Shown one piece after another: positions 60,143-63,405 of a stretch of 64,000 nt of DNA (positions within the stretch are counted from its first letter, which is position 1; the number at the start of each line of letters is the position of its first letter). The notes below the pieces were generated by a model, which had not been told where the DNA came from, did not search any database, and worked only from the letters and a program-made list of their open reading frames with translations. The stretch is from Halogeometricum rufum (GTDB taxonomy: Archaea > Halobacteriota > Halobacteria > Halobacteriales > Haloferacaceae): the NCBI RefSeq assembly GCF_900112175.1, contig NZ_FOYT01000002.1, positions 434,001 through 498,000 of the forward strand, given 5' to 3'. Made by a program: the position numbers and the translations under genes.

Positions 60143-62386
60143 TCAGCGATTACCGAACAACCGCTCCGCGAGCGAGCGTTTCCGCGTCTTCTCGGCCAGC
60201 AGGACCGAACAGTCCACCTCGTTCACCACGTCGAGGACCAGCGTCCCGCGGACGAGTCGCGAGAGCAGGCCGCGTTCCGTCGCGCCGATGACGAGCATCG
60301 TCGCGTCTCGCGCGTGGCGCGCGATGGCCGATTCCACGTCGTCGGACTCCTCGACGATCAGTTCGGCGTCGCCGAGTCCGTGGTTCTCGGCCCACTCCGA
60401 GAGGAACCGTTCGCCCTCCGCCTCGTCGTCGGTGACGTGGAGGAGGCGGACCGTCGAGCCGTACTGCTCGGCGAGGGTGGCGGCGACGGCGGCCGAGAGG
60501 TCCGAGTCGGGACCGCCCGCCGTCGGGACCAGAATCTCCGCGGGGTCGAACCCGCGGTCCTTCAGGACGAGGAAGTCGCACGGGAGCGAACTGGCGAGTT
60601 CGTCGATGGCGCTCTCGGCGCGACCCGGGGCCCCGTGGGCGTCCGGGCCCCAGCCCATGACGGTCAGGTCGGCGTCGTACGTGCGAGCGGCGTCGAATAT
60701 CTCCTCGAACGACCGGTGCGAGAGGACGGTGTGCGTCTCCACGGGCACGCCGAACGTCTCGGCGTCCTCGCGGGCGGCTTCGAGCAGTTCGTGTGCCTCC
60801 GCGAAGTCGCCGCGTTCGCGGGCGGACTCCAGCGCCGTCTGGTCGGGCACCTGTTCGATGTGGACGGCGACGACGGTTCCCTCGCGGGCCTTCGCGACGG
60901 CGCTGGCGAGGGTGATGAGGTCCGTCTCGTGTGCGGGGTTCGCCAGCGGCACCATCACGCGGTACTGGCCGCCGTCCGGTTGGACGGACGTGGCCGCCGA
61001 GACGGCGGCGTCGGGCATCTTCTCCGACTGGTTGAGGACGTACTCGCTGAGGACGCCGGACTTCTCCGTCTTTCCGCGCGCGTAGACGAGGTACCACGCC
61101 ACCGACGCGACGACGAAACCGGCGGCGAGCGCTATCTCGATGGGTTCCATGAAGGCGATGAGTCCGAACGAGAGGACGGCCCCCAGAATCGGGACGACCG
61201 GGTAGAGCGGGGCGGTGAACTCGGGGTCGTAGTCGGCGACGTCGGCCTCCCGCATCACGATGAGAGCGACGTTCATCAGCCCGTAGACGATGAGGTGGAG
61301 GACGCTGCCTGCCTTCGCCAGCACCTTCACGTTGCCGACGGCGATGAACAGGAGGATGAGGACGCCGGTGACGGCGATAGAGCGGTACGGCGTCGAGAAG
61401 CGCGGGTGGATGTCGTTCAGCCACGCCGTGATGAGCCTGTCGCGTCCCATCGCGAAGTTGATTCGCGAGGACGCGAGGATGGACGCGTTCGCGCTCGACG
61501 CGGTTGCGAGGAGGCCGCCGAACAGGATGAGACCCGCGCCGACGACGCCGAGGCCGAGCGTGTTCGAGAAGACGACTTCCGCCACGTCGATGACCGGGGT
61601 CGCCGACTGAGCGAGTTCCGTCCAGTTGAGGACGCCCATCAGCATCACCATGATGACGGCGTACATCACGGTCACGATGACGACGGAACCGACGACGGCC
61701 AGCGGGAGGTTCCGTCCGGGGTTCTTAATCTCCTCCGCGACGGTCGTTATCTTCGCGAACCCGAGGAACGAGACGAACACCAGTGCCGTCCCGGGGAGGA
61801 TGGCACCGTACCCGTTGGGCGCGAACGGGCGGAGCGTCGAGAGGTCGGCCATCGTGAGGCCGAGTATCGTGAACACCGTCAGGATGGCGACCAGCGTGAT
61901 GACGATGACGTTCTGGAGCGTCCCCGTCTCCTTGGCGCCGACGTAGTTGACGCCGACGAACGTCGCACCCGCGACGAGGGCAGCCACCTGCGTCGGGTCG
62001 AGCGTGAGAATCCCGAGTCCGACCGTCGGCACGTCCACGAGTTCGATGATGAACCCGCCGAACCCGAGCATGTAGAACGCCGAGGCGAACGCCAGCCCCA
62101 TCCAGTTGCCCATGCCGGCGATGCTCCCGAACAGGGGGCCGAGGGCGTGGTTGATGTAGTAGTAGCCGCCGCCGGCCTTCGGCATGGCCGTGCCGAGTTC
62201 CGACGCCGAGAGCGCCGTGAAGATGGAGACGACGCCGCCGACGACGAACGAGACGGCGACGACGGGGCCGGCGATTGCGGCCGCCTCGCCGGGCAGGACG
62301 AAGATGCCCGCACCGATCATCGTGCCGACGCCGATGGTGAGAGCGGCGAGTGGCCCGAGGTCTTTGGCGAGTTCTTCGTCGGTCAC
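60143..62386 (-). CDS. APC amino acid permease fused to two UspA domains
   Basis: A 747-residue membrane transporter. Residues 1 to about 430 are an APC-family permease with twelve TM segments, opening LGPLAALTIGVGTMIGAGIFVLPG (TM1 with the GAGIF unwound region) and with GGGYYYINHALGPLFG. Two cytoplasmic universal-stress-protein domains follow (about 470-600 and 610-735), typical of haloarchaeal amino acid or cationic transporters. GTG 62386 is the start and overlaps the last micro-ORF's stop. The 56-bp repeat array lies just upstream and carries its ribosome-binding site. Confidence 0.93.
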   Translation of the reverse strand: MTDEELAKDLGPLAALTIGVGTMIGAGIFVLPGEAAAIAGPVVAVSFVVGGVVSIFTALSASELGTAMPKAGGGYYYINHALGPLFGSIAGMGNWMGLAFASAFYMLGFGGFIIELVDVPTVGLGILTLDPTQVAALVAGATFVGVNYVGAKETGTLQNVIVITLVAILTVFTILGLTMADLSTLRPFAPNGYGAILPGTALVFVSFLGFAKITTVAEEIKNPGRNLPLAVVGSVVIVTVMYAVIMVMLMGVLNWTELAQSATPVIDVAEVVFSNTLGLGVVGAGLILFGGLLATASSANASILASSRINFAMGRDRLITAWLNDIHPRFSTPYRSIAVTGVLILLFIAVGNVKVLAKAGSVLHLIVYGLMNVALIVMREADVADYDPEFTAPLYPVVPILGAVLSFGLIAFMEPIEIALAAGFVVASVAWYLVYARGKTEKSGVLSEYVLNQSEKMPDAAVSAATSVQPDGGQYRVMVPLANPAHETDLITLASAVAKAREGTVVAVHIEQVPDQTALESARERGDFAEAHELLEAAREDAETFGVPVETHTVLSHRSFEEIFDAARTYDADLTVMGWGPDAHGAPGRAESAIDELASSLPCDFLVLKDRGFDPAEILVPTAGGPDSDLSAAVAATLAEQYGSTVRLLHVTDDEAEGERFLSEWAENHGLGDAELIVEESDDVESAIARHARDATMLVIGATERGLLSRLVRGTLVLDVVNEVDCSVLLAEKTRKRSLAERLFGNR

Positions 62387-62670
62387 GCGGAGTCACCTCC
62401 GTGCGACGAAGTCGTGACCGGCGGAGAACAATCGTCGGTCACGCGGAGTCACCTCCGTGCGACGAAATCGTGACCGGCGGAGAACAATCGTCGGTCACGC
62501 GGAGTCACCTCCGTGCGACGAAGTCGTGACCGGCGGAGAACAATCGTCGGTCACGCGGAGTCACCTCCGTGCGACGAAGTCGTGACCGGCGGAGAACAAT
62601 CGTCGGTCACGCGGAGTCACCTCCGTGCGACGAAATCGTGACCGGGGGAGAACGGTCGTCGGTCACGCGG
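62376..62670 (-). repeat. 56-bp tandem repeat array (5.3 copies) encoding coupled micro-ORFs
   Basis: A 295-bp array with unit length exactly 56 bp; unit joins lie at 62457, 62513, 62569 and 62625. On the minus strand each unit has the perfect Shine-Dalgarno GGAGGTGA, six bases, then GTG. From each GTG a 19-codon frame (MTDDCSPPVTTSSHGGDSA) runs to TGA, which overlaps the next GTG as GTGA. Five such frames: 62607-62666, 62551-62610, 62495-62554, 62439-62498, 62383-62442. The first overlaps the uspA stop (62663) and the fifth the permease GTG (62386). Copies are nearly identical; the first has Arg for Cys. Not CRISPR: no spacers. Confidence 0.92.
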
Positions 62671-63121
62671 CGTCCTCCTCGTCGGCGTCCGGCAGGGTGA
62701 CCACCGGCAGGTCGCTCTCGGTCACGAGCGATTTGCGGGTGTCGCCGGAGAACAGGTCCCACCACCGACTCCCCCCGCGCGGCGTGAACGCGATGCACGT
62801 CGCGCCGACGTCGTGGGCGGCGTCGATGATGGTGTCGGCGACGTCGGTGCCGTAGCGGAGGTCCGTCTCCACCTCGACGCCCGCGTCTTCGCCCGCCTCG
62901 CGGACGAGTGCGAACAGTTCGTCCGCGAGGTCCTCGCGTTGTTCGACCGACGCCTTGTCCGGGGCGCCGCCGGCCTTCTCGATGACGTGGACGAAGACGG
63001 CGCGCCCCCCGACGGCGGCGACGTGCGGCAGGACGGCGTCGGCCGTCGCGGCGGCGTCGTCGGCGTTCGCGACGGGGACGAGCGGTCGGTCGAACAGCGA
63101 CCGAGGCGACCCCTCAGCCAT
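62663..63121 (-). CDS. Universal stress protein (UspA family), stand-alone
   Basis: A 152-residue UspA-fold protein (ATG 63121, MAEGSPRSLF; an ATG at 63142 adds seven residues). PLVPVANADDAAATADAVLP begins the nucleotide fold; DVADTIIDAAHDVGATCIAFTPRGGS and KSLVTESDLPVVTLP are the usual Usp ends. Its TGA overlaps the GTG of the first micro-ORF (62666), so it, the micro-ORFs and the permease form one coupled unit. Function presumed in stress or regulation of the linked transporter. Confidence 0.86.
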   Translation of the reverse strand: MAEGSPRSLFDRPLVPVANADDAAATADAVLPHVAAVGGRAVFVHVIEKAGGAPDKASVEQREDLADELFALVREAGEDAGVEVETDLRYGTDVADTIIDAAHDVGATCIAFTPRGGSRWWDLFSGDTRKSLVTESDLPVVTLPDADEEDAA

Positions 63122-63405
63122 GCTGGCCACCGCCGTCGACACCGGGTCCGGTTCGGCGGCCGGGCGTCTCCCGGTCCGCGCCCGCGTCGTCGCGTTCGGC
63201 CCGGAGTCCCCCGACCCTCCGGTCGTCCCCCGCGGAACGAGACGTACGTGTACGTGAACGGATGCGACACAGAGTCATACGAGAGCGATTGTCCCTCCTC
63301 GGCTTTAGAAGTTCGCAAACCGACGTACCGGCGGCCGCGGCCGATTCGGCCTCGACGGACCGACCCGGACCGCCGGCCGACGGGACGTGCCGTCGCCCGC
63401 CCGAC

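Follow-up and report, generated by a model that had tools for sequence, protein, structure and literature searches.

The window analysed here is a 64,000-nucleotide stretch of Halogeometricum rufum DNA in which, on the minus strand, a universal stress protein gene (uspA) is separated from a gene for an APC-family permease with C-terminal USP domains by five tandem 56-bp units (Table 1). Tandem Repeats Finder places the array at 62376-62674 (period 56, 5.3 copies, 97% matches) and gives it the top score in the window. Each unit holds a micro-ORF that runs from GTG to TGA, and the TGA of every micro-ORF shares four nucleotides (GTGA) with the GTG that follows. The chain begins at the GTGA that terminates uspA (62666-62663) and ends where the fifth micro-ORF overlaps the GTG of the permease at 62386. 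The five-unit relay described in an earlier, sequence-only reading of this DNA is present, with both ends of the chain on genes. The encoded peptides are MTDDRSPPVTISSHGGDSA (one copy), MTDDCSPPVTTSSHGGDSA (three copies) and MTDDCSPPVTISSHGGDSA (one copy).

Table 1. Features of the uspA-permease region in the window; minus-strand features are read from the higher to the lower coordinate.
Feature	Position	Strand	Evidence or remark
TATA-like TTCTAAAG	63303..63310	-	~28 nt 5' of the leader ORF ATG; similarly placed boxes in relatives
Probable leaderless leader ORF, 54 codons	63114..63278	-	Stop in uspA start ATGGCTGA, 8-nt overlap
uspA, universal stress protein, 152 aa	62663..63121	-	Pfam Usp 3.1e-08; orthologues in relatives' loci 39-84% identical; TGA inside first GTGA
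Micro-ORF 1, 19 codons	62607..62666	-	Shares 4 nt each with the uspA stop and the next start; most divergent copy
Micro-ORF 2, 19 codons	62551..62610	-	
Micro-ORF 3, 19 codons	62495..62554	-	
Micro-ORF 4, 19 codons	62439..62498	-	
Micro-ORF 5, 19 codons	62383..62442	-	TGA overlaps permease GTG
Predicted hairpin arm GTTCTCCGCCGGTCACG within micro-ORF 5, complementary to permease start	62413..62429	-	Folding, duplex, covariation over 15 loci
Permease ribosome site GGAGGTGA, hairpin loop region	62393..62400	-	Sequence, folding, pattern match
Permease start arm CGTGACCGACGAAGAA of the predicted hairpin	62372..62387	-	Folding, duplex, covariation
APC-family permease with C-terminal USP domains, 747 aa, GTG start	60143..62386	-	Pfam AA_permease_2 1.4e-43, Usp 3.3e-23

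The same reading had credited each repeat with a ribosome site of its own. A perfect GGAGGTGA does lie 6 nt upstream of starts 2-5 and of the permease start; however, each copy is located within the upstream unit and thus serves the following start, and the first micro-ORF relies on GAGGAGG within uspA. No anti-SD pattern was found in the assembly, where the rRNA is perhaps missing or masked. A genome search placed the array at a single location, all other matches being short and at chance level, and the array has no Rfam match above the gathering threshold.

Much of the chain follows from the repeat period. Because 56 = 60 - 4, any RTGA with an open frame closes on the next copy, and since every RTGA meets the TGA of the next copy in frame 19 codons on, one open unit is enough for a complete chain. 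On its antisense strand (62414-62640, plus strand) the array carries, because of the same 56-bp period, a relay of four 19-codon GTG frames with GTGA overlaps. When the unit was shuffled its frame was still open in 54-90% of trials, and random first-order Markov sequences of 64 kb usually contained chains of three to four frames and sometimes of five. After the antisense control, the relay within the array was dropped as evidence in itself, and the unit length and open frames, which had been thought surprising, lose that standing. The significance of the chain is that both of its ends land on real genes and that it recurs in relatives.

Comparable units were found at 15 loci, which belong to the four genera Halogeometricum, Halogranum, Halobellus and Salinigranum. 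The units are 55, 56, 58, 59 or 62 bp long, and at all readable junctions the stop and start codons overlap, by 4 nt for units of 56, 59 and 62 bp and by 8 nt for units of 55 and 58 bp. Frames are intact in all readable units, the array of Halogranum amylolyticum being gapped in its assembly; broken frames in relatives had been named as a point that would count against the relay. Most unit-bearing species have one unit. Two are present in H. limi, Halobellus sp. Atlit-31R and Salinigranum G030, at least four in Halogranum amylolyticum (in an array interrupted by the assembly gap) and five at the window's locus. In unit-free haloarchaea, the usual arrangement, uspA overlaps the permease directly by 4 or 8 nt. 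Some Halobellus and Salinigranum species that are sister to species with one or two units have none, and the unit is thus not essential.

Copy number was compared between sister loci in a concatenated uspA-permease tree, of which the well-supported sister pairs were used and the deep part was left uninterpreted because the window permease groups with other genera. Sister loci differ as 2/0 and 1/0 in Halobellus and as 1/0 in Salinigranum. Judged from these loci, copy number turns over frequently while the overlaps persist, and the one-copy forms in related genera suggest an ancient coupler that grew to five copies only recently. This comparison gives good support to the proposed passage of ribosomes from uspA to the permease: overlaps are kept at both ends across 15 loci and one to five copies.

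Folding of the last unit predicts that micro-ORF codons 5-10 (TGT TCT TCC CCN CTC ACG) pair with the permease start (CGTGAGC GAC GAAGAA), with the ribosome site near the tip of the hairpin; the conserved middle of the micro-ORF, CSSPLT, is the complement of the permease start codons. This hairpin, the main feature of the region, had escaped the earlier reading. For the 15 loci we built a hairpin alignment spliced by codon register, in which the loop is omitted and a constant linker put in its place. Paired cells make up 79.9% of this alignment, a figure inflated by the fact that the structure was first found by folding the same sequences, which affects covariation less. Two-sided changes are present at 10 of the 16 pairs, and covariation is 0.302 compared with 0.153 in shuffles (0 of 500 reach the observed value) and at most 0.167 in slid registers. 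The outer six pairs, which are possible only with permease codons 4-5, covary on their own, one of them occurring as UA, CG and AU. Matched arm and start variants include TTCTTC/GAAGAA in H. limi and Halogranum, CTCCTC/GAGGAG and CTCATC/GATGAG in Halobellus and GGTCAC/GTGACC in the window, and the arm fits the permease start of its own species better than those of others (0 of 100,000 permutations; ten loci, P = 5e-5).

The mean duplex z is -2.7 at the 15 unit junctions compared with -0.2 at 50 unit-free junctions (P = 3e-7), with folding energies that refer to 37 °C and standard salt rather than to the haloarchaeal cytoplasm. Two Halogeometricum loci have weak duplexes (G002, z -0.07; G004, z -0.96), and the hairpin is thus not universal. 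At the starts inside the array the GAAGAA half of the stem is missing, and masking would therefore act mainly at the permease start. On the evidence of folding and covariation, the predicted hairpin would mask that start.

In Haloferax volcanii, nine of nine overlapping gene pairs are strictly coupled, and the SD is not used in de novo initiation and assists restarting (PMC6728339). Coupling there is nearly lost at about 20 nt (PMC10666635), so that a distance of 56-280 nt from uspA to the permease, about 280 nt in the window, could be bridged only by translated units. We consider it probable, from the sequence comparisons, that a translated micro-ORF both maintains termination-reinitiation coupling and melts a start-blocking hairpin, and that it has been amplified by slippage. 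Ribosomes that end uspA would restart on the overlapping GTG of the first micro-ORF, cross 19 codons, restart at the next overlapping start and finally reach the permease. Crossing of the last unit would open the hairpin in which codons 5-10 are paired with the permease start codons. As the closed hairpin would block independent starts, the permease would be made mainly by ribosomes arriving from uspA. Translation of the units, formation of the hairpin in the cell and repression by it are steps that we infer from sequence and from folding models.

The five-fold array would most likely have arisen by replication slippage or by unequal exchange between the repeated start sequences. Either process would account for the near identity of the four permease-proximal units and the divergence of the first, and expansion would be cheap and readily tolerated, since the relay survives any change by whole units. 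An effect of unit number on permease output is possible but unproven. It has a stronger version, in which copy number is a selected rheostat: additional units would lower the flow to the permease through loss at each restart, or raise it through extra entry, and reversible slippage would do the tuning. Copy numbers of 0, 1, 2, at least 4 and 5 among close relatives, repeated changes in different lineages and a strong SD in each unit are consistent with this. However, most species hold a single unit, neutral slippage predicts an identical pattern, and three tandem perfect SDs of this kind occur at one locus among 391 haloarchaeal genomes; we therefore regard selected tuning as rather unlikely. 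We are equally doubtful that a slippage-adjustable relay, together with hairpin opening, sets the ratio of permease to stress protein by copy number. If it did, the relay would amount to a digitally adjustable translational attenuator in an archaeon. In any case, these relatives of the genetically tractable Haloferax volcanii provide a natural series in which 0, 1, 2, at least 4 or 5 coupling steps link one and the same gene pair, together with a covarying hairpin predicted to mask the permease start.

It is improbable that the array is a neutral minisatellite, with a permease translated independently and micro-ORFs that are by-products of the repeat. A relay is automatic at a 56-bp period, on the antisense strand as well, and chance alone would often leave the frames open. 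Nevertheless, units that are present once in related species and genera retain both overlaps and the covarying arm, antisense relays are missing from most of the compared unit-bearing loci, and haloarchaea are not known to start de novo through an SD (PMC6728339).

We give still less credence to an action of the micropeptide itself, whether as a stalling or sensing Cys/Ser/Pro leader peptide or as a secreted or bound peptide. MS(D/G)(D/E)CSSPLT...HGG is common to several Halogranum, Halobellus and Halogeometricum units, and third-position changes predominate in some micro-ORF comparisons. However, the varying third positions pair with the third positions of permease codons 4-5 and change jointly with them, those of the micro-ORF Cys and Ser codons facing those of the permease Glu and Asp codons, and the coding-like pattern thus arises from pairing. 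HGGD is the SD itself, which Salinigranum reads in another frame as HTEVS, and the peptides of G002, G004 and Salinigranum are unrelated. No independent evidence of a functional peptide emerged. Since the codons that are conserved change in step with those of the permease start, peptide conservation was discarded as the driver and RNA pairing is the better account of it; the earlier suggestion that the tiny peptides may matter is not borne out. A role of the repeats at the DNA level, as regulator-binding sites or as an internal promoter, is hardly credible: each unit has an inverted repeat (CGTGACCG...CGGTCACG), but the array lies inside the operon, has no TATA-like sequence (its AT-richest 8-mer is ATTGTTCT), on which ground an internal promoter was rejected, and the repeat covaries with the permease start codons instead of holding a fixed motif.

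A coupler that keeps ribosomes in transit and opens a masked start has counterparts elsewhere. In erm leaders, MS2 coat-lysis and rpmI-rplT, upstream translation opens a structure that hides a downstream start. The arrangement proposed here resembles these translational attenuators and coupled operons with masked ribosome sites in that the permease start would be hidden until the upstream frame is translated, and in silico (folding and covariation) SD and start lie in a hairpin that overlaps a leader ORF. It differs from them in being archaeal and in having a tandemly repeated coupler.

Mycobacterial interspersed repetitive units (MIRUs), which vary in copy number, are another counterpart. According to PMC12548453, where Supply 1997 is cited, the internal ORF of a MIRU couples to a gene at a -4 overlap; the array unit is likewise a short repeat with an ORF coupled to a gene start in this way. 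MIRUs are dispersed over many loci and seemingly mobile, whereas the array unit occupies one locus in its genome, and a dispersed repeat family was rejected on that ground. Unlike a MIRU, the unit is haloarchaeal, 55-62 bp long and equipped with a predicted hairpin fitted to its own downstream gene.

The TeRe pairs of Haloferax volcanii are alike in their -4 (ATGA/GTGA) and -8 overlaps, strong upstream SD and co-directional haloarchaeal genes (PMC6728339, PMC10666635). TeRe pairs overlap by 4, 1 or 8 nt or lie a very short distance apart; the readable junctions of the 15 loci all overlap by 4 or 8 nt, and the SD, which is helpful and not essential in TeRe, precedes starts 2-5 and the permease at 6 nt. 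The known TeRe pairs consist of two ordinary genes, whereas in the present loci between one and five micro-ORFs that lack annotation separate the genes and the second start is predicted to be covered by a covarying hairpin. In mycobacteria, leaderless small ORFs are coupled to genes through RTGA; their peptides are unconserved, the RTGA linkage is conserved, and they may deliver ribosomes (PMC4633059). The array units carry the RTGA tetramer that links small ORF and gene. They are, however, operon-internal and would be fed by uspA, and, with no TATA in the array, probably do not start at a transcript 5' end; such a start is likely for the leader ORF before uspA, judged from TATA spacing. The mycobacterial small ORFs resemble this leader ORF and the Halorubrum micro-ORFs described below. 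RTGA-coupled small ORFs (PMC4633059) and MIRUs (PMC12548453) tell against the earlier remark that no described system of this sort was known. Three elements are new here: the unit lies inside an archaeal operon, its micro-ORF contains a covarying arm predicted to mask the start, and it has been amplified in tandem.

At 17 of 17 loci compared, including Haloferax, a TATA-like box is followed after ~28 nt by an ATG and a frame of 24-57 codons that ends on the uspA start. The peptide of this leader ORF is not conserved between genera, and uspA itself appears to be fed by a coupled leader ORF. In genomes of the Halorubrum, Haloprofundus and Halegenticoccus types, permease homologues have other, unrelated micro-ORFs with the same overlaps, several of them behind a TATA-like box of their own. 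Taken with the uspA leader ORF, these micro-ORFs suggest that very short frames with a coupling role recur in haloarchaeal operons and go unannotated.

Short leaderless frames such as MTHVRRVTTVRGGPP, MTPRSSKRVVSIVDDDVTTEGRS and MSYPGTASLRPPSFWSIYG, which end on the permease start (4- or 8-nt overlap) at permease homologues without a directly overlapping uspA, were seen together with TATA-like boxes at Halorubrum-type loci (genus g14: L162, L165, L166, L169, L171, L173, L175, L177 and L182) and Haloprofundus-type loci (genus g11: L160, L163, L035 and L036). At L026 (G022, Halegenticoccus soli) the position of the permease start is ATA in ATAAGCGACGAG and overlaps the TAA that closes a 20-codon frame upstream; this ATA is a non-standard start, an error or a sign of another start site.

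The permease start region of the window is 85-86% identical to those of Haloferax mucosum and Haladaptatus, compared with 77% to H. limi. The window uspA is nearest to that of H. limi (84%). The window may thus have acquired its permease by exchange, in which case the arm in the array has come to match the start of the incoming gene.

A search of 391 haloarchaeal genomes for three tandem perfect SDs returned this array and two unrelated repeats. L198 (G104) and L199 (G038) are tandem repeats with units of ~28 and ~40 bp, respectively, and GGAGGTGA in each unit.
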